Shown: positions 161-16,407, counted from the stretch's first letter. The stretch is DNA of 64,000 nucleotides from Bacteroidia bacterium (GCA_018000995.1 JAGNIU010000011.1:1-64000); one strand, 5' to 3'. Notes: a model not told the origin generated them from the sequence alone. Numbers and translations are program-made.

Positions 161-1357
161 TTGAAAAAGACAATAGCCATAGTTGGCGGAGGGCCAGCCG
201 CTTTGTTTTTAGCGGCGAATTTGGACGAAAACCAATACCACGTTACTATTTATGAAAAAAACGCGGCCTTAGGACGAAAGTTTCTGGTGGCCGGACAAGG
301 TGGTTTTAATTTAACCCATAGCGAAGACATTGAGATGATGTTAACGCGCTATACCCCTACTTCTTTTCTTAAAAAAGCCCTTAAAGATTTTTCGAATACA
401 GATTTGCGAAATTTTTTGAATTCATTAGGTATACAAACGTATGTTGGTACAAGTAAAAGAGTTTTTCCTGTTAAGGATATTAAACCTATTTCCGTTTTTA
501 ATGCCCTTTTAAATTTTTTAAAACAAAAAGGCGTCATTATTAAAACTAATTTTAACTGGAAAGGTTTTGATGCGGACAACAAATTCGTTTTTGAAACAGA
601 AACCAAAGAACAAAAAGTTGTGGCAGATAAAGTAATATTTGCATTAGGCGGTGCGAGTTGGAAAGTAACAGGCTCCGACGGATCATGGCTCGGACATTTT
701 GAGAAAAAAGGAATTACATGTTTACCTTTCCGAGCATCCAATAGTGCTTTTGAAATAAAATGGCCTGAAGGTGTTTCGGAAAAATTTAAAGGGAAAGCCT
801 TAAAGAATTGTTCGTTCTTGTGTGGCGAAAAAGAAATTAAAGGCGAAGCTGTTTTAACCTCATTTGGTATTGAAGGCAGTGGTGTTTATCCGTTAAGCGG
901 TGAAATACGAAAACAGCTTGATGAGAATAAATCCGCAGATCTTTTCATAGATTTCAAACCTCAATTAACTAAAGCCGAAATAAAAAAACGTCTAGTTGCA
1001 AATAAAAATAAAGCCCTTTCTCGTTTTTTGGAAACTGATCTTAAACTTAATAAAACGATTTTGCTTTTACTTAAAACTTTTTTGAGTAAAGAAGAATTTA
1101 CAGACCCCGAAACATTAAGTTCCAAAATAAAAGAATTCAAATTGATAATTAATTCACTCGCTCCTATTGATGAAGCCATTTCAACTGTCGGTGGTATTGC
1201 ATTAAATGAAATTGACGAAAATTACGAGCTAAAAAAATTGCCTCAGCATTATGTAATTGGTGAAATGTTAGATTGGGATGCCCCAACCGGTGGTTATTTA
1301 TTGCAGGCTTGCTTTAGTATGGGACACCATTTGGCAAAACATCTTAATACTATTTAA
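161..1357 (+). CDS. BaiN/YhiN (HI0933)-family FAD-dependent oxidoreductase
   Basis: Predicted cytoplasmic flavoprotein of the HI0933-like family, about 398 residues, the usual length. The Rossmann fold starts at once (TIAIVGGGPAALFLA) and is followed by the family signature around GRKFLVAGQGGFNLTHS. The C-terminus has the FAD-contacting segment STVGGIALNEI and the glycine-rich end WDAPTGGYLLQACFSMG. I place the start at TTG 161, just before the Rossmann strand. An in-frame GTG at 101 would add 20 residues coded by a terminator-like hairpin and is less likely. The substrate is unknown; characterised relatives reduce bile-acid intermediates, but that role cannot be transferred here. Confidence 0.86.
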   Translation: MKKTIAIVGGGPAALFLAANLDENQYHVTIYEKNAALGRKFLVAGQGGFNLTHSEDIEMMLTRYTPTSFLKKALKDFSNTDLRNFLNSLGIQTYVGTSKRVFPVKDIKPISVFNALLNFLKQKGVIIKTNFNWKGFDADNKFVFETETKEQKVVADKVIFALGGASWKVTGSDGSWLGHFEKKGITCLPFRASNSAFEIKWPEGVSEKFKGKALKNCSFLCGEKEIKGEAVLTSFGIEGSGVYPLSGEIRKQLDENKSADLFIDFKPQLTKAEIKKRLVANKNKALSRFLETDLKLNKTILLLLKTFLSKEEFTDPETLSSKIKEFKLIINSLAPIDEAISTVGGIALNEIDENYELKKLPQHYVIGEMLDWDAPTGGYLLQACFSMGHHLAKHLNTI

Positions 1358-1422
1358 AGGAATTGACAACCTAGATTTCCATCTTAACATTAAGAAGCTT
1401 GCTTATCAACATGAAATTTAAC

Positions 1423-1596
1423 TCAGGGATTTTTTTTACGTGCCCTTAATATAAGTATCACAATCAATACAATAATTCCAACTACTATAAATATCCCGAA
1501 ATTCATTCCCGCGTTAAAAATTCCTGACACAACGCCGCATGAAGCGAAAGAAAGAAGTGTAAGTACGATAGTAAATAATTTAAGAAAGCTTTTCAT
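1423..1596 (-). CDS. Small predicted lipoprotein with one membrane segment (57 aa)
   Basis: A short gene read by eye on the minus strand. The 57-residue product begins MKSFLKLFTIVLTLLSFASC, a signal peptide ending in a plausible lipobox with Cys20. A short GVVSGIFNAGMNFG linker follows, then a hydrophobic helix (about residues 35-50) and a basic tail (RARKKNP). Similar tiny lipoprotein-plus-helix proteins are widespread in Bacteroidota and have no established function. It is convergent with the flavoprotein gene, from which it is separated by 65 bases in which I see nothing. Confidence 0.6.
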   Translation of the reverse strand: MKSFLKLFTIVLTLLSFASCGVVSGIFNAGMNFGIFIVVGIIVLIVILILRARKKNP

Positions 1597-1706
1597 AATA
1601 ATTGAGTTTATAGCATGAATATATCACTGAAAACATTCTTATCGGGACTAAAATCGGCGGAAGGTAATTTAAAGTAGCCTTCAACCACTTTTTATAATTT
1701 ATTTCT

Positions 1707-1714
1707 TAAATTTG
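1707..1714 (+). promoter_or_regulatory. Putative -7 box for the TPR operon
   Basis: TAAATTTG matches the Bacteroidota -7 consensus TAnnTTTG. It lies 25 bases before the proposed CTG start at 1740, which leaves a normal short leader. No clear TTG -33 element is visible at the expected distance. Confidence 0.4.
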
Positions 1715-1739
1715 ATTAAGTAACCTTATCCTTTTCAAT

Positions 1740-3305
1740 CTGAAAAATCTAGTTTTAATATTAATTCTTCTTCCCTTTCTTTCATTTGGGCAGAATATTG
1801 ATTCTTTAAAACTTGCTCTTAAAAACGCAAAGCATGATACAACGCGGTGTAATATTTTATTAATCCTTGCCGAAACTGCCAGTGATGAAGAGTGGCCTGC
1901 TTTTAATGAACAATTATTAAAGCTGTCTGAAAAATGTGCTTCTAATATCTCAACTAAAACCCTTAAGAGTTTCTATTTAAAGCATCTTGGCGGCGCACTC
2001 AACAATACTGGTTTTCTTGCCTGGCAACATGGCGACATGAATAAAGCGTTAGAATTCTATTATAAAAGTCTAAAAATACACGAAGAAATTGTTAACAAAA
2101 AGGGAATGGCTACCTCTTTAAACAACATTGGAGTTATTTATATGGATCAGGGCGACATCATTAAAGCTCTAGAAATTTATCATAAAAGTTTAAAAACTCT
2201 TGAAGAAATTAAAGATAAAAATGGGGTAGCTACCACTTTGCATAATATTGCGCGCATTTACAATGATCAGGGTGATATACCAAAAGCATTAGAGTTCTAT
2301 CATAAGAGTTTAAAATTAAGGGAGGCGATCATGGATAAAACGGGAACAGCTCAATCCCTTAACAGTATTGGGGTTATTTACGATAATCAGAATGATATCA
2401 TTAAAGCACTCGAGTTCTATAACAAGAGCTTAAAAATAATGGAAGAAATTAAGAACAAAAATGGAATGGCTACCTCTTTAAACAACATTGGGTTTACCTA
2501 CAATAGGCAGGGCGACAACATAAAAGCACTGGAGTTCTATAATAAAAGTTTAAAAATAAGAGAAGAAACTAAGAACAAAAGTGGGATCGCTAGCTCTTTA
2601 AACAACATTGCGTTTATTTATAATAATAATGGAGATTTATCTAAAGCACTGATTTTTTATAATAAAAGCTTAAACATTTTCGAAGAAATAATGGACAAAA
2701 ATGGAATGGCAACCTCATTAAATAATATTGGGAATCTTTTACTTAAACAGGAGAAAAATATTGAGGCAATTGCTTATGCCACGCGAAGCATGGAAACTGC
2801 CAAAGAATTAGGATTTCCCCGGAAAATTAAAGATGCGGCTTGTTTGCTTAAGGATATTTATAAAAAACAAAACAAATTCAAGGAAGCTTTTGAAATGTAT
2901 GAATTGGAAATTAAAATGCGGGATAGCATCAATAACGAAGAAACACAAAAAGCTGCCGTAAAAAAACAAATGCAATATGAATATGAAACAAAAGCCCGCG
3001 AATTAAAAAACGAACAAGAGAAAAAAGATATTATTGTAAAAGCAGAATTAAAGCAAAGGGAAAAAGAACGGAATTATTTTGTGATTGGATTTGCTTTAGT
3101 GATTGTACTCGCCCTGTTCATTTTTAGAAGTTACCGTCAAAAACAAAAAGCCAATTTAATTATCACTAAGCAAAAACACGAAGTTGAAGAAAGCAGGAAA
3201 GAAATTTTAGATAGCATTCATTATGCCAAGCGTATTCAGAAGGCGATGATACCTTCTGATAAATACATTGATAAAAACTTAAACCGTTTACAAAACAAGG
3301 GATGA
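1740..3305 (+). CDS. TPR-repeat membrane protein, paralogue 1 (no output domain; CTG start)
   Basis: Predicted inner-membrane sensor-like protein of about 521 residues. It has an N-terminal signal segment, about six or seven 40-residue tetratricopeptide repeats (NNIG.IY..QGD..KAL pattern), a charged coiled coil, one membrane helix (near FALVIVLALFIF) and a short cytoplasmic tail containing EILDSIHYAKRIQKA. In related Bacteroidota proteins this tail leads into a SpoIIE phosphatase or kinase; here it stops about 20 residues later. The first ATG (2037) lies inside the TPR array. The reading frame is open upstream, and residues from CTG 1740 (LKNLVLILILLPFLSFGQ) align with the start of the two downstream paralogues, so CTG replaces their ATG. 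The stop overlaps the next start (ATGA, 3302-3305). Confidence 0.82.
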   Translation: MKNLVLILILLPFLSFGQNIDSLKLALKNAKHDTTRCNILLILAETASDEEWPAFNEQLLKLSEKCASNISTKTLKSFYLKHLGGALNNTGFLAWQHGDMNKALEFYYKSLKIHEEIVNKKGMATSLNNIGVIYMDQGDIIKALEIYHKSLKTLEEIKDKNGVATTLHNIARIYNDQGDIPKALEFYHKSLKLREAIMDKTGTAQSLNSIGVIYDNQNDIIKALEFYNKSLKIMEEIKNKNGMATSLNNIGFTYNRQGDNIKALEFYNKSLKIREETKNKSGIASSLNNIAFIYNNNGDLSKALIFYNKSLNIFEEIMDKNGMATSLNNIGNLLLKQEKNIEAIAYATRSMETAKELGFPRKIKDAACLLKDIYKKQNKFKEAFEMYELEIKMRDSINNEETQKAAVKKQMQYEYETKARELKNEQEKKDIIVKAELKQREKERNYFVIGFALVIVLALFIFRSYRQKQKANLIITKQKHEVEESRKEILDSIHYAKRIQKAMIPSDKYIDKNLNRLQNKG

Positions 3306-4747
3306 AAAAAATTATTTTCATATTGTTTCTTTTCCCTGGCTTTTTGTTTGGGCAAGACAGAATCGTTGATTCTTTAAAACTTGCTCTAAAAAATGCTAAG
3401 CATGATACTACTAGGTGTAATATTTTATATACACTTGCTGAAACAGCTAGTGATGAAGAATGGCCTGCTTTTAATGAACAATTAAAAGTGTTAGCAGACA
3501 AAAACAGTTCCAATAATACAGCATTAAAGAAATTTTATTTAAAACACCTTGCTTCTGCCCTTCATAACATTGGTTTCATTAATGAAAATCAAGGCGACAT
3601 GCCCAAGTCACTGGAATATTATCAGAAAAGTTTCAAGATAAGAGAAGAAATTAGAGATACTCGAGGTATTGCAACTTCATTAAACAGCATCGGTCTTATT
3701 TATCATAATCAAGGCGACATCCCTAAGGCTTTAGAGTATTACCATAGGAGTTTAAAGATTTATGAAGATATTGGAGACAAAATCGGATTAACAACTTCAT
3801 TAAACAACATTGGAGCTATTTATGAAACTCAAGGCGATTACTCAAAAGCGTTGGAGTATCATCATAAGAATTTAAAAATTAGGGAAGAGCTTGGAGACAA
3901 ATACAAGATAGCTTCCACTTTAAATAATCTTGGTATTACATATAATTCACAAGGCAACACACAAAAGGCACTCGAGTCTTATCAAAGGAGTTTAAAGATT
4001 CAGGAAGAGATTGGTGATAAAAAAGGAAAAGGCTACTCTTTAAACAATATCGGTTCAATTTATAAGCAGCAAGGCGACATCAACAAAGCATTGGAGTATT
4101 ATCAGAAAAGCTTAATGATCCAAGAAGAGACAAAGGATAAAACCGGAATAATATCTTCTTTGCACAATATTGCCAATCTGATATTAGAAAAAGGGCAGAC
4201 AGTTCAAGCTCTTATTTTGGCAAATAGGGCGATGCAAATTTCTGAGGAATTAGGCTTTCCCCAAAGAATTAAAAATTCTGCTAATCTGCTAAAACACATC
4301 TTTCAACAACAAAACAAATACAAAGAAGCTTTTGAAATGCTTGAGTTGGAAGTCAAAATGAGAGACAGTGTTAACAATCAGGAAACTCAAAAAGCTGCTG
4401 TAAAAAAACAAATGCAATATGAATACGAAACCCAAGCTAAGGAATTAAAAAATGAACAAGAAAAAAAGGATATTATTGTGAAGGCCGAATTAAAACAAAG
4501 AGAAAAAGAACGGAATTATTTTGTTATTGGATTCGCTTTGGTAATTGTGCTTGCTCTATTCATTTTTAGAAGTTACCGACAGAAACAAAGAGTCAATTTA
4601 ATCATCACCCAACAAAAAAACCAAGTAGAAGAAAGTCGGAAAGAAATTTTAGATAGCATACATTACGCTAAACGAATACAAAAAGCACATTTGCCTTCTA
4701 ATAATTATATTGAAAAGAACTTAAACCGTTTGCAAAACAAAGGATGA
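3302..4747 (+). CDS. TPR-repeat membrane protein, paralogue 2 (no output domain)
   Basis: A 481-residue paralogue of its neighbours on both sides. Signal peptide MKKIIFILFLFPGFLFGQ, then about six 40-residue TPR units predicted to lie in the periplasm, the near-invariant coiled coil (KNEQEKKDIIVKAELKQ), a membrane helix at about 405-423, and a tail ending shortly after AKRIQKAHLPS with no catalytic domain. It is translationally coupled at both ends by 4-base ATGA overlaps. The TPR part differs much more between the paralogues than the coiled coil, helix and tail do, suggesting different ligands with a shared membrane or cytoplasmic partner. The biochemical role is unknown. Confidence 0.87.
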   Translation: MKKIIFILFLFPGFLFGQDRIVDSLKLALKNAKHDTTRCNILYTLAETASDEEWPAFNEQLKVLADKNSSNNTALKKFYLKHLASALHNIGFINENQGDMPKSLEYYQKSFKIREEIRDTRGIATSLNSIGLIYHNQGDIPKALEYYHRSLKIYEDIGDKIGLTTSLNNIGAIYETQGDYSKALEYHHKNLKIREELGDKYKIASTLNNLGITYNSQGNTQKALESYQRSLKIQEEIGDKKGKGYSLNNIGSIYKQQGDINKALEYYQKSLMIQEETKDKTGIISSLHNIANLILEKGQTVQALILANRAMQISEELGFPQRIKNSANLLKHIFQQQNKYKEAFEMLELEVKMRDSVNNQETQKAAVKKQMQYEYETQAKELKNEQEKKDIIVKAELKQREKERNYFVIGFALVIVLALFIFRSYRQKQRVNLIITQQKNQVEESRKEILDSIHYAKRIQKAHLPSNNYIEKNLNRLQNKG

Positions 4748-6198
4748 AAAAAATAATTTTTATATTATTTCTTTTTCCACTCTTTTTGTTTGGACAAGAC
4801 AGAATTGTTGATTCATTGAATCTCGTTCTTAAAAATGCAACCCATGATACAACCAAATGCAGAGTTTATATAGAATTGGGTTCAGAATTGTACTCTAGAA
4901 ACCCGGATTCCGCTTTAACACTATGGCAAAAAGCACAACTCCTTTCAGAAAAGAATTTACTTAATAGCGATCCTCTTAAAAAGTGGTATTTGTTACGACT
5001 TGGTCAGTCATTAAATAATCTGGGAATTGTTTATTCAGACCGAGGTGACAATCAAAAGGCCTATCAATATTATATTAAGAGTATCAAGATTCATAAAGAG
5101 GCCGGTGAAAAAAAAGGTTTAGCTACTTCCTTAAGCAATATTGGACTTATTCACGACGCACAAGGTAATATTCAAAAAGCATTGGAGTATTACCACGCCG
5201 GGTTAAAGATTAGAGAAGAGATTAATGATAAACAAGGGATAGCTGATGTTTTAAATAACATGGGAGGCATTTATAAACTTCAAGGAGACACTTCAAAAAC
5301 ATTAGAATATTTTTTAAGGGCTTTGAAAATTAGCGAAGGTATTGATTATAAAGAAGGAGTAGCAATGGCCTTAAACAACATTGGAGTTACTTATGATGAT
5401 CAATCCCAAACATCTTTAGCATTAGAGTATTATAAAAAGAGTTTAAAAATTAGAGAAGAGCTTGGTGATAAGCACGGGATAGCATTGTCTTTACTCAACA
5501 TTGGTGTTATTTACTATAACCAAAACAACTACCCCTTAGCATTAGAGTATTATAACAAAAGTTTAAACCTTTGGGAAGAAATAGAAGAGAAAAATGGTAT
5601 TGCTAATTCATTGTTAAGAATAGGAAATATTTATTTCTATCAAGGTAATTTAAAAGCAAGTTTAACTTATGCAACCAAAGGCATGAAAATTTCTAAAGAA
5701 TTAGGTTATCCTGAAATTATCAATAGCTCCGCCGAGTTGCTTAAATTCATATACCAAAAACAAAACAAATATAAAGAAGCATTTGAAATGTTTGAACTGG
5801 AAATTAAAATGAGAGATAGTATATACAACGATGAAACACAAAAAGAATCTGTAAAAAAACAAATGCAATACCAATATGAAACACAAGCTAAAGAACTAAA
5901 AAACGAACAGGAAAAAAAAGATATTATTGCGAAGGCTGAATTAAAACAAAGAGAAAAAGAAAGAAATTATTTCGTAATTGGTTTTGCATTAGTAATTGTG
6001 CTTGCGCTATTCATTTTTAGAAGCTACCGACAGAAACAAAAAGCTAATTTAATCATCACATTACAAAAATCTCAAGTTGAAGAAAGCCGGAAAGAAATTT
6101 TAGATAGCATCCATTATGCAAAGCGCATTCAGAAAGCGCATTTACCTTCTAATAATTACATTGAAAAGAATTTAAACCGTTTGCAGAAGAAAGGATAA
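4744..6198 (+). CDS. TPR-repeat membrane protein, paralogue 3 (no output domain)
   Basis: A 484-residue third copy with the same layout: signal peptide, degenerate N-terminal helices (here CRVYIELGSELYSRNPDSAL instead of the TAETASDEEW type of the other two), about six TPR units, the conserved coiled coil, a membrane helix at about 408-426, and a tail ending after IQKAHLPS. There is no phosphatase, kinase or DNA-binding domain. It overlaps the previous gene by ATGA and ends one base before the start of the Coq7-like gene, so all four appear co-translated. Family knowledge suggests signalling; the output partner is not encoded here. Confidence 0.87.
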   Translation: MKKIIFILFLFPLFLFGQDRIVDSLNLVLKNATHDTTKCRVYIELGSELYSRNPDSALTLWQKAQLLSEKNLLNSDPLKKWYLLRLGQSLNNLGIVYSDRGDNQKAYQYYIKSIKIHKEAGEKKGLATSLSNIGLIHDAQGNIQKALEYYHAGLKIREEINDKQGIADVLNNMGGIYKLQGDTSKTLEYFLRALKISEGIDYKEGVAMALNNIGVTYDDQSQTSLALEYYKKSLKIREELGDKHGIALSLLNIGVIYYNQNNYPLALEYYNKSLNLWEEIEEKNGIANSLLRIGNIYFYQGNLKASLTYATKGMKISKELGYPEIINSSAELLKFIYQKQNKYKEAFEMFELEIKMRDSIYNDETQKESVKKQMQYQYETQAKELKNEQEKKDIIAKAELKQREKERNYFVIGFALVIVLALFIFRSYRQKQKANLIITLQKSQVEESRKEILDSIHYAKRIQKAHLPSNNYIEKNLNRLQKKG

Positions 6199-6199
6199 T

Positions 6200-6766
6200 A
6201 TGAAACTAAAGCATCCACAATTAGTTGATTTACTACAACAAGCCTACTCCGCCGAAAGAGCTGCTGCATTCGCTTATATTGGTCATGCCGGTTCAGTTAA
6301 AAATCCTGATGAGAAAAAAGCGATTAAACAAATTGAAGATGATGAATGGTTTCACCGTAAGGAAGTATTAGAAATAATGAACGAATATGATATTCCCATT
6401 TCTAAATGGTATGAATTCAGATTTTATGTGGTAGGAAAAATTATTTGGTACAGCTGCTACGTGATTGGTTGGTTTATGCCTTTTTATTTTGCAGGACGAT
6501 TAGAAAGTGGTAACGTGTGCGAATATTTTAGAATGAAACAATGGTTTAACGAATTAGGTATTACCAAACACGACCAAATTCTATACGACATGGGTATCAA
6601 AGAAAAAGAACATGAAGTTTATTTCTTAGAACAAATAAAAGACAGTAAACTCCTCCCCTTCTTCGAAAAATTATTTAACTGGGGCGGACAAAAAAATTTT
6701 AATAATATTGATTTAGATAAAAAATATCCTGTTGAGAAATCGGATGTGTATTGTAAGAAGGATTAA
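6200..6766 (+). CDS. Ferritin-like diiron protein (Coq7/demethoxyubiquinone hydroxylase-like)
   Basis: A 188-residue four-helix-bundle protein. The diiron ligand pattern of the Coq7 class is visible: E19 (YSAERAAA), an ExxH at E49-H52 (EWFH), E103 (RLESGN) and a second ExxH at E136-H139 (EKEH). A hydrophobic stretch around residues 80-100 would sit in or on the membrane, as in Coq7. Bacteroidota use menaquinone, so ubiquinone hydroxylation is unlikely and the substrate is open; oxygen or peroxide sensing or detoxification is possible. The ATG follows the TPR-3 stop by one base, so it belongs to the same operon. Confidence 0.72.
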   Translation: MKLKHPQLVDLLQQAYSAERAAAFAYIGHAGSVKNPDEKKAIKQIEDDEWFHRKEVLEIMNEYDIPISKWYEFRFYVVGKIIWYSCYVIGWFMPFYFAGRLESGNVCEYFRMKQWFNELGITKHDQILYDMGIKEKEHEVYFLEQIKDSKLLPFFEKLFNWGGQKNFNNIDLDKKYPVEKSDVYCKKD

Positions 6767-6825
6767 TGCGCCAATTGAATAACATAAATAAAAATTACTT
6801 ACATTAGTAATAGAATAATATACAA

Positions 6826-8403
6826 ATGAAAAACATTATACTTACGCTGATTTGCATTTTGACTTTTGGATTCAAATTATTTGCCCAACCATGTGGAATT
6901 GCTCAAACATTAACCACATTACAACAATCACAAATAAGCAGCATCCTCAATCCATTAGACAGTGCATTGAAATATGAAAACTTATTTAAAATTGATTCAC
7001 TAAGTTTTGAATTAAAGAATGTTTATTCAACACAAGGCGGACGACCTGATGCGATTGAACCGTATTCTGCATTAGTATCAAACATCAATTGGCTAAATAT
7101 TACAAATTCAATTTTACTTTCAAGGGCACTCATATCGGCTGATAGCATGGTATATGTTAATTTGTGGAGAACAGCTAAAGGAATGAATCCTCCTTCCTAT
7201 CAACCACATTCATTGTTTTTAAGAGCGTCGGCAGAAATAGCAGCTGGTCTTTTAAAAATTGCAGATAAAGAAACCGACATCACAAGAAAAACACTTTATC
7301 AATCTTGGGCAACAAGAGCCTTAGATAGTTTAGCCACGATGCAAATTCAAACCGGACCTTGTGTAGGTGCTTTTCCATTTCCTGACCTTAGACCTTATGG
7401 CGATGCTACATTTGGACCTATCATTCAAAACTTCATGTTTTTTTGTGGTGCCGACTCAGTAAATGTTTTACAAAATGGTTGGATTATTAATGACAAAGGA
7501 ACTGGAGAATTTAAATTTGATGCGGGAGTGATTGCGAATGCATACTATGAAGCCTACAATTACACAGGGAATACCAATTACAGAAACATTGCAATTTCAA
7601 TTGGTAATTATTTAAAGCCACTAAAGTTTAATAAAAACTATAATTACAACACCTTTGTTTCGTTGGGACTTACAAGAACGTATCAATTAAACAATGACAT
7701 AACATTTTTAGACAGAGCGATTAAAAACATCCGCTATTCTGTTCAACCCGGTCAAATTACAAATGGACGTTGGGTTGATGGACATAACGCAAATTCACGT
7801 TATCATAGTATTATCATTCAAAATATTATTCCAACAATTCAATTAATACCTGCTTTAGATAATTACAAAAACGTATTGGACACAATGACCTACAAAGCGG
7901 TTAAAAATTTAGTTGATTATTCTTATAACTGTAATTCTGCAACCGGTTATCGTTGGTTAATCAAATCATATGGGTTAGGCTTATCCATTATACCCCAATC
8001 CTTAAAAGATTCTATTACCGACCTTATTGGGAAGCATATCAATCAATCGGCAGCTAACGGAAAATATTTAGATGTTCCCACCATGGGTGAATACTTAGAA
8101 TTACTTTCTTCATTCTCCGGTTTAGATGAAATAAATTTGCCGAATGATTTAAAATTAAACATTTTCCCAAATCCAACAAACCATATTACCAATCTCACAT
8201 TCAATATTTCAGAATCGGAAAATATTAATTTATCACTTTTCAATATTAACGGACAACTAGTAAAAATTATTGACGGTGGGCAAAAAACTAAAGGGACATA
8301 CAGTTATTCTATAGACCTTTCCGATTTCACAAGCGGTGTTTATGTAATAACACTTCAAACAAATGATAAGAAATTCTCTAAGAAAATAATAAAGTCAGAA
8401 TAA
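6826..8403 (+). CDS. Secreted alpha-helical T9SS cargo of unknown function
   Basis: A 525-residue exported protein. The signal peptide (MKNIILTLICILTFGFKLFA) is followed by a region of about 400 residues rich in paired helices, with aromatic and acidic patches such as FDAGVIANAYYEAYNYTGN and NGRWVDGHNANSRYH. This suggests an (alpha/alpha)-toroid of the kind found in polysaccharide-degrading enzymes, but I do not recognise a family or catalytic motif. The last roughly 80 residues (LNIFPNPTNHITNLTFNIS to the lysine-rich end KKFSKKIIKSE) form a type A T9SS sorting domain, so the mature protein should reach the surface or medium. It stands alone with about 60 bases of AT-rich leader. Confidence 0.75.
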   Translation: MKNIILTLICILTFGFKLFAQPCGIAQTLTTLQQSQISSILNPLDSALKYENLFKIDSLSFELKNVYSTQGGRPDAIEPYSALVSNINWLNITNSILLSRALISADSMVYVNLWRTAKGMNPPSYQPHSLFLRASAEIAAGLLKIADKETDITRKTLYQSWATRALDSLATMQIQTGPCVGAFPFPDLRPYGDATFGPIIQNFMFFCGADSVNVLQNGWIINDKGTGEFKFDAGVIANAYYEAYNYTGNTNYRNIAISIGNYLKPLKFNKNYNYNTFVSLGLTRTYQLNNDITFLDRAIKNIRYSVQPGQITNGRWVDGHNANSRYHSIIIQNIIPTIQLIPALDNYKNVLDTMTYKAVKNLVDYSYNCNSATGYRWLIKSYGLGLSIIPQSLKDSITDLIGKHINQSAANGKYLDVPTMGEYLELLSSFSGLDEINLPNDLKLNIFPNPTNHITNLTFNISESENINLSLFNINGQLVKIIDGGQKTKGTYSYSIDLSDFTSGVYVITLQTNDKKFSKKIIKSE

Positions 8404-8434
8404 ATATTCTGTCACCCTTTTTTATTGTATAACA

Positions 8435-9196
8435 TTACCGCTTAAATGTTCTAAACAAAACAGCTGCTAATCTTATTCCTGCGCGAACTAATTGTTTTTC
8501 TATTATTGGCTTTGCTTTTGCAGCGTATTCAGAGGTGATTTTTCCTTTTTCAAAACCATAAACAAATGGGAGAAACTCACGCGATTCTTCCATCCACTTT
8601 ACAACGTTGATTTGCTGTATTTGCTGAATTTCAGCCTTACTTAATGTATTTGAAAACTGAAGACAATCTTTTAATCCAATGTTTTCTTCCTTTATCAAAC
8701 CTGTATCCCACATAGAATGCAAATTCTGCGAATCACCATAACTTACAGAAACACTATTACCTCCCTTATCTTCTGCATATCCACAATGCAAAGGTTGATG
8801 CAAATCTCCCACTAAATGAAACAATTCACGTAAAGCCATGGCAATTTTATCCTTATCTCTCGGTCCTTTTGCTGATAGAATAGAAATAACCACTTCCAAT
8901 TCATTTACTGCATTTTCATCCTTTGTTTTAACATAAGTGGCATCGCGCTCAACATTAACATAATGACGGGGCTTTAAATAATCATAAGATGCATCACTTC
9001 TTACTTCATCCATCCAAACTGAAGCCTCCTGAAAAGTCATAGTCCCAAGGTAATACTGAATCGAATCAATAACTTGTTGGTTAGCGGATAAGGCTTGTTT
9101 AGCAAATTCCGCCACAATTTTATGCCCTTTTGCTCCCCAACCGAAGGATTGAATGGAGACTAGAGTAAATAACACTGCAAAAAGGAGCTTTTTCAT
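8435..9196 (-). CDS. S1/P1-family secreted nuclease
   Basis: A 253-residue exported zinc-dependent nuclease of the S1/P1 family. The signal peptide ends so that a tryptophan (W20 in FGWGAKGHKIV) becomes the mature N-terminus, which is the family's zinc-binding terminal residue. Further metal ligands lie in ELFHLVGDLHQPLHCG and NLHSMWDTG. It should cleave single-stranded DNA or RNA outside the cytoplasm, for nutrient phosphate or nucleotide scavenging. It is convergent with the upstream T9SS cargo (31-base gap) and divergent from the histidine kinase. No T9SS sorting domain is present, so a periplasmic location is more likely. Confidence 0.9.
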   Translation of the reverse strand: MKKLLFAVLFTLVSIQSFGWGAKGHKIVAEFAKQALSANQQVIDSIQYYLGTMTFQEASVWMDEVRSDASYDYLKPRHYVNVERDATYVKTKDENAVNELEVVISILSAKGPRDKDKIAMALRELFHLVGDLHQPLHCGYAEDKGGNSVSVSYGDSQNLHSMWDTGLIKEENIGLKDCLQFSNTLSKAEIQQIQQINVVKWMEESREFLPFVYGFEKGKITSEYAAKAKPIIEKQLVRAGIRLAAVLFRTFKR

Positions 9197-13029: not shown

Positions 13030-16000
13030 TTACTTGCTGATTACAAAATAAAAATGCTTGGAAGCGTACTCGCTTATCACTCTCAAAATATACGTTCCGT
13101 TTTGCAGTTGACTAACATTTACCGGAAGCGTAATCACATCAACATCCAAAAAGTTTTGCTGAAAATGTTTTTGTGGTGATGAATCCCAAATTTGCACGCT
13201 GGCATTTTGCTTTTTATAAAACTCTACCTGCACCGTAAATTGTCCGGTATTAGGATTTGGAAATACATTCAATGATTTAATCCCATTATTGTTTGTTAAA
13301 GCGGCATAAGCTGAATCTAAAGGCATTATCTTAATGAGCTTGGTTGTACTTGTTATACACGTCCCATAAAACGCCTGCAAGGTTACAGGAAAAATTCCGG
13401 TATCAGCAAAAACAACAACAGGATTAAACATATCGCCCCCTATAATAGAAGCAGAAGAAGGTAAAACCCATTTTACTGAATCTGCTTTTGGTACAGTTAA
13501 ATCGATTAATACTACTGTATCGCCTTTAAAATTTTGTGTGGAAGCAATAAATACAGGCGAATTTAAATTACTATTCTGACTAATTGTAGCCGTGGTATTT
13601 AAAACACAACCTATAGAATCTCTGATGCTAACAGAATAAGTTGCAAAAGGTAAATTTGTGTAAGTTATTTGTGAAGTAAACGGACTACCATTAACGGAAA
13701 ATTTGTAAGGGGAAATTCCACCTTTTACATAAATAGTTAAGCTTCCATTATTACCTGTGCAACCTTTTGCTGTGATAATAGAATCTTGCATATCGACAGG
13801 AATATTTACAACTACCGTATCTTTTCCGGTACAACCAAATGAACCATTAGCTGTAACAACATAAGTTGTAGTTAAAGCTGGATTAACTGAAATACTTTGT
13901 CCGCTTCCACCACTGCTCCATGTATAAGTCACACCACTAACTGTTCCCACAACTAAGGCGCTTAAATTAGCTATTGAGCTTTTGCAAATTGTAGTATCAT
14001 TACCTGCATCAACAACCAAAGTATTACTGTAACCAACATTTACCGAATCTTTTTTACTGCAACCATTATCAGTGCGTGTGGCCGTAAAATAATATTTTCC
14101 TTGTACACTAGTTACAGCAGGATTGGCTGATGAAAAACTGGAAGGGCCTGTCCAAACCCCTGTTGCGGATGTTGGTGAGAAAGCTGCAACTAAAGTGGCA
14201 GTACTACTGCTGCAATTAATATTGGGATTGGCAGTTAGCACTAAAATATTGGGTGGTGTTATATTTTGTTTCACAAGAACAATCATTGAAGAATCAACAC
14301 AACTATTATCCAAACGGGTTACAATTGCCATTTGATTAGATTGTCCGAATACCGTAACCGGATTTGCAGAAATTGTTTTAGTCGCGTTATCTTTCCAAAC
14401 CAAAGTACAATTGGTTGGAGAAAAAGCAGCACTTAAAGTGACGCTTGTTGTTAAACAGGAAATACTATCAACAGCAAGAGCCGAATTAATAAACGTATGA
14501 CTCGTTAAAGTAACAGTTGGTTGTGCGGCAGAACTTGTTACAGTAATAATGGTGGATGTGTTTTTGCAACCGTTATAAGTATTTCTTACCTCTAAAAAAT
14601 AATTTCCTAAACTTACGGAAGCTGGATTGGCAGTATAGGTTGTTTGAGCAGTATTTTTCCAAAACAAACTTGTTGGTGTAGTTGTACTTGTTCCGTTTAA
14701 ACTAATCAAACTGTTAGTACCGCATCCGACTAAATACGGACCAGCTGGCAAAGTGACATTTGGTCTTATTGTATCAATACGAACTAAGACTGAAGTTGTG
14801 CGCGTACAGCCTGTTGCTAATGTTGTTACAGTTAAAGTGTAAACACCAGATATTTTATAACCTGTCGAATCATTTTGTAAAGAACTTGTATAACCGGAAG
14901 GACCACTCCAAGCATAAGCAACACCCGGTGTTGCTGAATTTCCTAATATTGGAACTTTTGGTTTGAAACAATTTAATGTATCATCCACTAAACTTGCTGT
15001 TGCATTTGGACGAGGATAAACAGTGATGTTTAATGATAAAGTATCACTCACACTTCCACAAGAAGCCAATGCGCACACTTTTAATTTTCCTGAAGTTGCT
15101 CCTAAAGCAAAATTAATTGAAACACTATTACCTAAATTAGTTAGTGAGGCGCCTGTACCCGTGTAAGTCCAGCTATATGTACCAGCATATCTAAATGGTG
15201 AAACGCTAAAAGTAACATTGGAAGTTTGCTCACATAAAGTTGTAGTAGCTGCCGCAATTAAAGTTGATGTTATAATTGGTGGCAAACAAAACGCATCAAT
15301 ATTAAAATTATTGGTCACTCTACTGGAAGCATACAAACGGTTTCGGAAATTTTCTAATAAATAATCGTCGTTAGGGAGTGTAGGATTAAAAAGCGGTAAA
15401 CTCCAATTCATTATTGAATTAGAATTTAGATTTATAGCTTTCAAAATAAAATCTCCAACCGGATTTACAACTGTACTGTTTAAAGTAGTATATTTTCCAA
15501 TAGCAAATAAATATTTATCGTACACTTCAATTTCTTCAACATTAGCATCAAACGAGGGTGTTCCGTTTTGCAAAACCCCTGCCATATTTAACTTTGCATA
15601 ATGATTGCGAACTTGTCCTTTTACATTAGTGAAATTTCCGCTTATGTGAATTTCATTATTATACAGCTCAACATCTTTAACGGTATCATTAGTTAAATAA
15701 TTTAAGGTAGAGATTTGTCCGTTACTAATATTGATACTGGTTATGTTTTCATCTATTTGAATTGAAGAAGCGTTTAAAACAGAAAAGCCCCCTGCTAAAT
15801 ATAATTTCCCGCCCACGGCTTTCATTTTAATTACATTTCCCCATATATATCCATTGGTAAATGTAGAACATGAAATAGTATTAAATGAAAGTAAAGTGCC
15901 AGTAGTTCTGTTTCTTATTTCTAAAATCTGACAATCTGCAATTCCATCATTTGTAATAGTGAATACCGAATCATTACGCATTGTTGAAGCAACAACGGTT

Positions 16001-16407
16001 TGATTAAAAGCCGGAGAGTAAGTCCAAACCGGTGTATATGCCGGGGTGTTATAACGCCTAAAATAATCCCCATCGTTTACATTTATCCCATTACTTCCCT
16101 GTTGCATTTCTCTTGAAACAACATGTACCCCAAATGGATTATAACCTACAAAAGAGGTGTTTATAGAATTAGAATTAAGATTAACATACGATAGCCCACT
16201 ATACATATTAGCTGGTCCAACCCCGCAAATACAAGAGGACTGGAAATGTAACAAGCTATTCACTGTATCTTCGGCTAAAGCGTTTACATGTGTATTATTT
16301 GGGAAAACTCCGGAAGCAGTAAAAGAAATTGGCGCAATAATTTGTGCGTTTACATGGATTGTAAACAAAGACAATAAACAAATTATATATTTTAATATAG
16401 TCTGCAT
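13030..16407 (-). CDS. Large secreted multi-Ig adhesin-like protein with T9SS sorting domain
   Basis: A 1125-residue exported protein. Signal peptide, then an N-terminal propeller-like domain (about 25-370, with repeats such as GGKLYLAGGFSVLNASS). About seven Ig/PKD-like modules of 80-90 residues follow, with paired cysteines and YAWSGPSGYTSS-like cores. One SprB-like repeat (GCTGNNGSLTIYVKGGISPY) and a type A sorting domain (LNVFPNPNTGQFTVQVEFYK to FYFVISK) complete it. It is probably a surface adhesin or structural cargo. Its final 200 bases are duplicated as the fragment at 10458-10661. Modular repeats like these recombine easily. Confidence 0.84.
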   Translation of the reverse strand: MQTILKYIICLLSLFTIHVNAQIIAPISFTASGVFPNNTHVNALAEDTVNSLLHFQSSCICGVGPANMYSGLSYVNLNSNSINTSFVGYNPFGVHVVSREMQQGSNGINVNDGDYFRRYNTPAYTPVWTYSPAFNQTVVASTMRNDSVFTITNDGIADCQILEIRNRTTGTLLSFNTISCSTFTNGYIWGNVIKMKAVGGKLYLAGGFSVLNASSIQIDENITSINISNGQISTLNYLTNDTVKDVELYNNEIHISGNFTNVKGQVRNHYAKLNMAGVLQNGTPSFDANVEEIEVYDKYLFAIGKYTTLNSTVVNPVGDFILKAINLNSNSIMNWSLPLFNPTLPNDDYLLENFRNRLYASSRVTNNFNIDAFCLPPIITSTLIAAATTTLCEQTSNVTFSVSPFRYAGTYSWTYTGTGASLTNLGNSVSINFALGATSGKLKVCALASCGSVSDTLSLNITVYPRPNATASLVDDTLNCFKPKVPILGNSATPGVAYAWSGPSGYTSSLQNDSTGYKISGVYTLTVTTLATGCTRTTSVLVRIDTIRPNVTLPAGPYLVGCGTNSLISLNGTSTTTPTSLFWKNTAQTTYTANPASVSLGNYFLEVRNTYNGCKNTSTIITVTSSAAQPTVTLTSHTFINSALAVDSISCLTTSVTLSAAFSPTNCTLVWKDNATKTISANPVTVFGQSNQMAIVTRLDNSCVDSSMIVLVKQNITPPNILVLTANPNINCSSSTATLVAAFSPTSATGVWTGPSSFSSANPAVTSVQGKYYFTATRTDNGCSKKDSVNVGYSNTLVVDAGNDTTICKSSIANLSALVVGTVSGVTYTWSSGGSGQSISVNPALTTTYVVTANGSFGCTGKDTVVVNIPVDMQDSIITAKGCTGNNGSLTIYVKGGISPYKFSVNGSPFTSQITYTNLPFATYSVSIRDSIGCVLNTTATISQNSNLNSPVFIASTQNFKGDTVVLIDLTVPKADSVKWVLPSSASIIGGDMFNPVVVFADTGIFPVTLQAFYGTCITSTTKLIKIMPLDSAYAALTNNNGIKSLNVFPNPNTGQFTVQVEFYKKQNASVQIWDSSPQKHFQQNFLDVDVITLPVNVSQLQNGTYILRVISEYASKHFYFVISK

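Follow-up and report, generated by a model that had tools for sequence, protein, structure and literature searches.

The three tandem membrane-protein genes described here are best read as encoding the sensing part of a split receptor-phosphatase system, in which dozens of receptors would share one trans-acting phosphatase that probably acts on SiaC. From comparison of this genome with those of its relatives, we give this interpretation a probability of about 0.72. In the known serine/threonine phosphatase receptors, a single chain links each sensor to a catalytic domain of its own. In the present case this chain was apparently severed where the dimerisation helices meet the catalytic core, and the sensor half was copied dozens of times. 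A search of the open-access literature found no published account of such a split receptor-phosphatase system. The genes lie in a window of 64,000 nucleotides (bases 1-64000 of contig C51) from an assembly of 3.61 Mb in 77 contigs that is 98.8% complete.

Anatomy of the three window receptors

The genes occupy positions 1740-3305, 3302-4747 and 4744-6198 of the plus strand and encode proteins of 521, 481 and 484 amino acids, referred to as receptors 1, 2 and 3. The starts of genes 2 and 3 lie inside ATGA overlaps with the stop of the preceding gene. The frame of gene 1 opens with CTG at 1740, as there is no ATG at the signal peptide and a start at the first ATG (2037) would delete that peptide. 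In a rough assignment of the start codons of 41 tail genes of this genome, ATG was found in 25, GTG in 6, TTG in 5 and CTG in gene 1 only; non-ATG starts therefore seem to be common in the family, many of whose members apparently have GTG, TTG, CTG or a rarer codon instead of an ATG before the signal peptide. The region upstream of the receptors (101-1357) encodes an ordinary flavoprotein of the TIGR03862 family (HI0933-like).

Receptor 1 consists of a signal peptide, TPRs (1974-2753), a coiled coil, a transmembrane helix (3075-3128, YFVIGFALVIVLALFIFR) and a cytoplasmic tail (3210-3302, DSIHYAKRIQ...RLQNKG). The transmembrane helices of receptors 2 and 3 lie at 4517-4570 and 5968-6021, and their tails at 4652-4744 and 6103-6195; the helix of receptor 1 was placed by its sequence and by alignment. 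The repeats of the window receptors recur exactly every 120 nt, or 40 residues, and match Pfam TPR_12 with E values of 1e-48 to 1e-65. Those of receptor 1 are of the LGN/kinesin-light-chain type, and a fold search with the predicted structure of receptor 2 showed a resemblance to the TPR domains of these two proteins. The window proteins thus combine tandem TPRs with a signal peptide and a transmembrane helix, the latter two read from the sequence, as expected of TPR membrane receptors. The AlphaFold model of receptor 2 (pLDDT 82 overall, but about 60-70 in the long helix) predicts a single helix of 103 residues (360-462) that comprises the coiled coil, the transmembrane segment and DSIHYAKRIQ, followed by a proline turn and a second helix (467-479). 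A periplasmic TPR domain and a transmembrane segment are also found in FimS-type histidine kinases, and the NCBIfam model HK_Porph_FimS matches the TPR part of the window receptors; however, the score (133 bits) is far below the cut-off of 600 bits, and no kinase domain is present.

All three receptors end 21 residues past DSIHYAKRIQ. The segment running from the coiled coil through the transmembrane helix to the tail is 87-92% identical among the window copies, compared with 50-56% for the TPRs. In this module dN is 0.04-0.08 and dS is about 0.9-1.2, giving dN/dS of about 0.04-0.07. Because synonymous sites are near saturation, recent gene conversion is ruled out as the source of the nearly identical C-termini, and the likeness of the module is held by constraint rather than by recent copying. 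A fourth close paralogue, on contig C16, had the appearance of a lone 125-aa module but proved to be cut by the contig end. The sequence-only reading had described three paralogues with ATGA junctions, TPRs, a coiled coil, a transmembrane helix and a common end point, and all of this is confirmed. Its further description of them as lacking an output domain understates the tail, in itself a conserved element.

Tail receptors and the stand-alone catalytic core

The window receptors are members of a conserved class, not truncated leftovers. When homologues that end at this point were listed against those that continue, as the sequence-only reading had proposed, about 43 ORFs of this genome were found to stop 16-28 residues (mode 19-21) past DSIxYAKRIQ, and about two dozen to run on into SpoIIE, for which the genome has 42 matches in total. 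The tails share the consensus DSIxYAKRIQxSLLPTEKYIxKNLxRLKK-stop, with a signature at fixed sites (Y in 41/43 and K/R in 41/43) that is absent from the SpoIIE versions. One tail type is carried by three kinds of sensor, namely TPR, Reg_prop/Y_Y_Y (for example, C64:181421-184072) and 7TMR-DISM (C49:25635-27038). The TPR/Reg_prop/7TMR-SpoIIE receptors of Bacteroidota have the same sensors, coiled coil, transmembrane segment and DSIxYAKRIQ helix, but they continue into a catalytic domain, whereas the tail receptors stop before beta1 and have their own alpha2 consensus. In a tree of the sensor-side module, from which the tail was left out, the two endings are mixed (18 changes, compared with 18.5 in label shuffles); the supported branches force at least four changes of ending in this tree, which has few columns and is poorly resolved. 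In the surroundings of about 40 tail genes, where a conserved partner was looked for, no neighbour recurs. The number of tail receptors ranges from 0 to 57 among genomes of one family (G000, the genome of the window, G004, G022, G034 and others), a variation that represents very rapid expansion and loss; such counts in other genomes hang on the HMM cut-off, which in this genome barely splits tails from SpoIIE versions (62.8 versus 62.2 bits).

Three genomes (G469, G462 and G034) contain tail units fused in frame, with 2 to 5 units per chain and one ORF of 2412 aa. The fused receptors at L201 (G469:C16:13500-32500, at 1317-8552 and 13225-16383), L202 (2338-8595), L203 and L204 have 5, 2, 4, 2 and 2 units. 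In these chains the n-region of each following signal peptide is supplied by the basic end of the preceding tail, and neither ATG nor GTG is present at the G469 junctions examined. These fusions suggest that the tail does not need a free C-terminus, and an out-in-out topology remains consistent with them.

A stand-alone catalytic core of the SiaA/SpoIIE type that appears to be the missing cytoplasmic partner of the tail receptors is encoded on the minus strand of contig C64 (33034-32321), starting 12 bases past a tail gene (34540-33044). The protein, of about 237 aa, begins at beta1 (MEAVATETKNFFILYKPKDIVSGDFY...) without the helices that the tails carry, and it matches only positions 437-656 of the 658 in the SiaA model, with a score of 126 bits where the cut-off is 700. 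Of 87 genomes of the order, 31 carry a stand-alone core. G495 was taken out of this count, since its candidate, like that of G027, has DSIHYAKRIQ upstream in the same frame and is an embedded domain. The orthologues are 64-96% identical, with frames of 232-254 aa except for one cut by a contig end, and they form a single clade (support 99) relative to the embedded SpoIIE domains of this genome. Their dN/dS is about 0.03. The metal-ligand motifs GDFY, DCTGHGVPGA, DGMD and DG are kept in 33 cores, and VDD or IDD is found in the full-length cores shown. A tail gene immediately precedes 13 of these 33 cores, and the remainder lie elsewhere.

Tail and core occur together. With a tail called present at a best HMM E value of 1e-20 or lower, 28 of the 87 genomes, mostly MAGs, have both, 1 has a tail only, 3 have a core only and 55 have neither (Fisher 2.5e-18, an overstated value because the genomes are related and the counts are not independent). 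The cores lacking a clear tail match are those of G028, G485 (56% complete) and G021, and the genome with a single tail-like match but no stand-alone core is G027. Within at least four genera (g1, g2, g7 and g10) the presence of tail and core varies, and the two come and go together almost without exception. In G051, a member of another family in which tails were known, a core was predicted before the search, and one was found (236 aa, 73% identity). A second genome from outside the order, G043, carries a core preceded by a tail gene; the remaining 12 such genomes queried for the core gave embedded domains only or no match. The suggestion in the sequence-only reading that a cytoplasmic partner is encoded elsewhere is supported by this conserved core and its co-occurrence with the tails.

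Likeness to SiaA and the SiaB/SiaC pathway

Among solved structures, the one nearest to the DSIxYAKRIQ-SpoIIE segment is that of SiaA-PP2C from Pseudomonas aeruginosa (6K4E, E 1e-32), a component of the SiaABCD pathway. The alignment with 6K4E starts at the KIGDSLDYASLIQ helix, and the tails line up with the start of this match; the alpha1 motif of SiaA is DSLDYASLIQ. In our reading of the alignment, the tail is the equivalent of SiaA alpha1-alpha2. SiaA-PP2C is described as a homodimer held tightly together by alpha1, alpha2 and alpha3, and in its pathway SiaC is the substrate and SiaB the kinase (PMC7647112). Taken jointly, tail and core provide the DSxxYAxxIQ alpha1 helix ahead of the same PPM core, which has acidic metal ligands (PF07228, E 6e-21). 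Unlike SiaA, however, in which a HAMP sensor and the phosphatase form one polypeptide, the sensor with alpha1-alpha2 and the core are separate here, the tails lack the core, and there are many sensors per core. A further precedent is RsbU, a PPM phosphatase of the general stress response, since coiled-coil linkers control such dimeric phosphatases (PMC12143880), as we propose for the tail receptors; RsbU-type enzymes differ in being single chains whose linker is bound by the partner RsbT, with no shared catalytic subunit.

SiaB-family kinases and SiaC proteins number three each in this genome (three PF19788 and three PF09345 matches). They include a SiaB-SiaC-SpoIIE operon on C45 (L226, G000:C45:64287-68612) and a SpoIIE-x-SiaB-SiaC cluster on C52. 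The SpoIIE receptor of the C45 operon has 1128 aa, and in its sensor there is a below-cut-off match to PorZ, a protein of type IX secretion (NCBIfam, E 4e-37). Among 60 genomes, SiaC is present in 50 of 51 with the DSIxYAKRIQ module, counted in SpoIIE receptors as well as in tails, and in none of the nine without it (p 7e-10). With one genome taken from each of 23 other families, the numbers are 14/14 and 0/9 (p 1e-6). This co-presence makes SiaC the likely substrate of the shared phosphatase. Among the 60 relatives, SiaC tracks the module and not SpoIIE generally, and a few genomes with 1-3 SpoIIE matches have no SiaC.

Proposed mechanism, alternatives and implications

We propose that each subunit joins a TPR sensor in the periplasm to a signalling coiled coil, a transmembrane helix and a short cytoplasmic helix-turn-helix equivalent to alpha1-alpha2 of a SiaA-type PPM phosphatase, whereas the catalytic part, from beta1 to the end, would be a soluble protein of its own, present as one ortholog in each genome, that docks on the tails in trans. 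A ligand on the periplasmic TPRs would change the coiled coil across the membrane, and the paired alpha1-alpha2 tails would bind and switch the docked core, with SiaC, phosphorylated by SiaB, as its most likely substrate. About 43 receptors with different sensors could thereby converge on one enzyme in this genome. While the anatomy of the receptors, the conservation of tail and core, their co-occurrence and the presence of SiaB and SiaC are seen in the sequence, we infer the physical docking, the ligand control and the identity of the substrate. Against the proposal we count that one core for 43 receptors is unusual and that the same cells also contain many SpoIIE receptors.

One could envision that the tail receptors act instead on the full-length TPR-SpoIIE receptors, with which they would heterodimerise through the coiled coil and alpha1-alpha2, tuning them as co-receptors or dominant negatives. 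The module and alpha1 are common to both kinds of receptor, the SiaA-PP2C dimer is built on alpha1-alpha3 (PMC7647112), and a C-terminally truncated RsbU heterodimerises with full-length RsbU (PMC12143880). This hypothesis is nevertheless unlikely: it explains less because G005 and G007 have about 44 SpoIIE matches but no clear tail receptors and because tails follow the stand-alone core, and the tail signature residues are absent from the SpoIIE versions. Joint inheritance of tail and core with no joint function is a still less probable explanation. The cores form one clade, often sit beside a tail gene and come mostly from one family, but the two covary within the four genera named above, the core lacks an adjoining tail gene in many genomes, two further families fit, and tail and core are complementary halves of one domain. 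That the tail proteins are degenerate TPR-SpoIIE remnants, or were cut by the assembly, is extremely improbable, even though their ends coincide with a fixed domain boundary and they are interspersed among the SpoIIE versions on the tree. We take the tight length range and the conserved tail residues in 43 paralogues as refuting it, and the low dN/dS at near-saturated synonymous sites and the intact frames in many genomes also speak against it; the sequence-only reading had named assembly fragmentation of longer genes as a potential refutation, and this fails in view of the conserved tail, the purifying selection and the about 43 paralogues.

A redox- or oxygen-sensing unit made up of the three receptors and the protein encoded next to them is very unlikely. 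This 188-aa ORF (6200-6766, plus strand) starts, as had been stated, one base beyond the stop of gene 3 (6198), and the adjacency is kept in G002 and G003, genomes of the same genus that are probably the same assemblies as the linked public loci. The protein has a visible E...ExxH...ExxH motif, but its earlier designation as Coq7-like has no Pfam support: the COQ7 family did not match, nor did any other Pfam family, the best PDB E value was 0.18, and there is instead a weak EncB-type ferritin-like match (E 7e-4). The gene is single-copy in this genome, and homologues occur in 12 of 60 relatives and at 44 public loci that span Bacteroidota, Verrucomicrobia and a planctomycete. Tail genes lie upstream at only two of the 44 (L157 and L200), both in MAGs of the window's genus, and in G005 and G006, which belong to this genus too, no TPR genes flank the diiron gene. 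Neither a conserved position downstream of the receptors nor a role as their oxygen or radical sensor, both raised by the sequence-only reading, is supported by this distribution, and the neighbours of other tail genes are unrelated and do not recur. The diiron gene is probably an unrelated neighbour, outside the system, that happens to be co-transcribed.

We return to the split system. In its general form, it is reasonably probable that a receptor class reaching about 57 matches in a genome has one detached PPM phosphatase in common, completed by the two-helix tail of the receptor, with a hub logic like that of chemoreceptors sharing CheA, and with up to five units fused in one chain in some lineages. 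If true, this would account for a large group of TPR membrane proteins that seem to have no output and would provide a defined partner pair that is open to testing. It would also mean that a signalling network can grow through new receptors without new enzymes.
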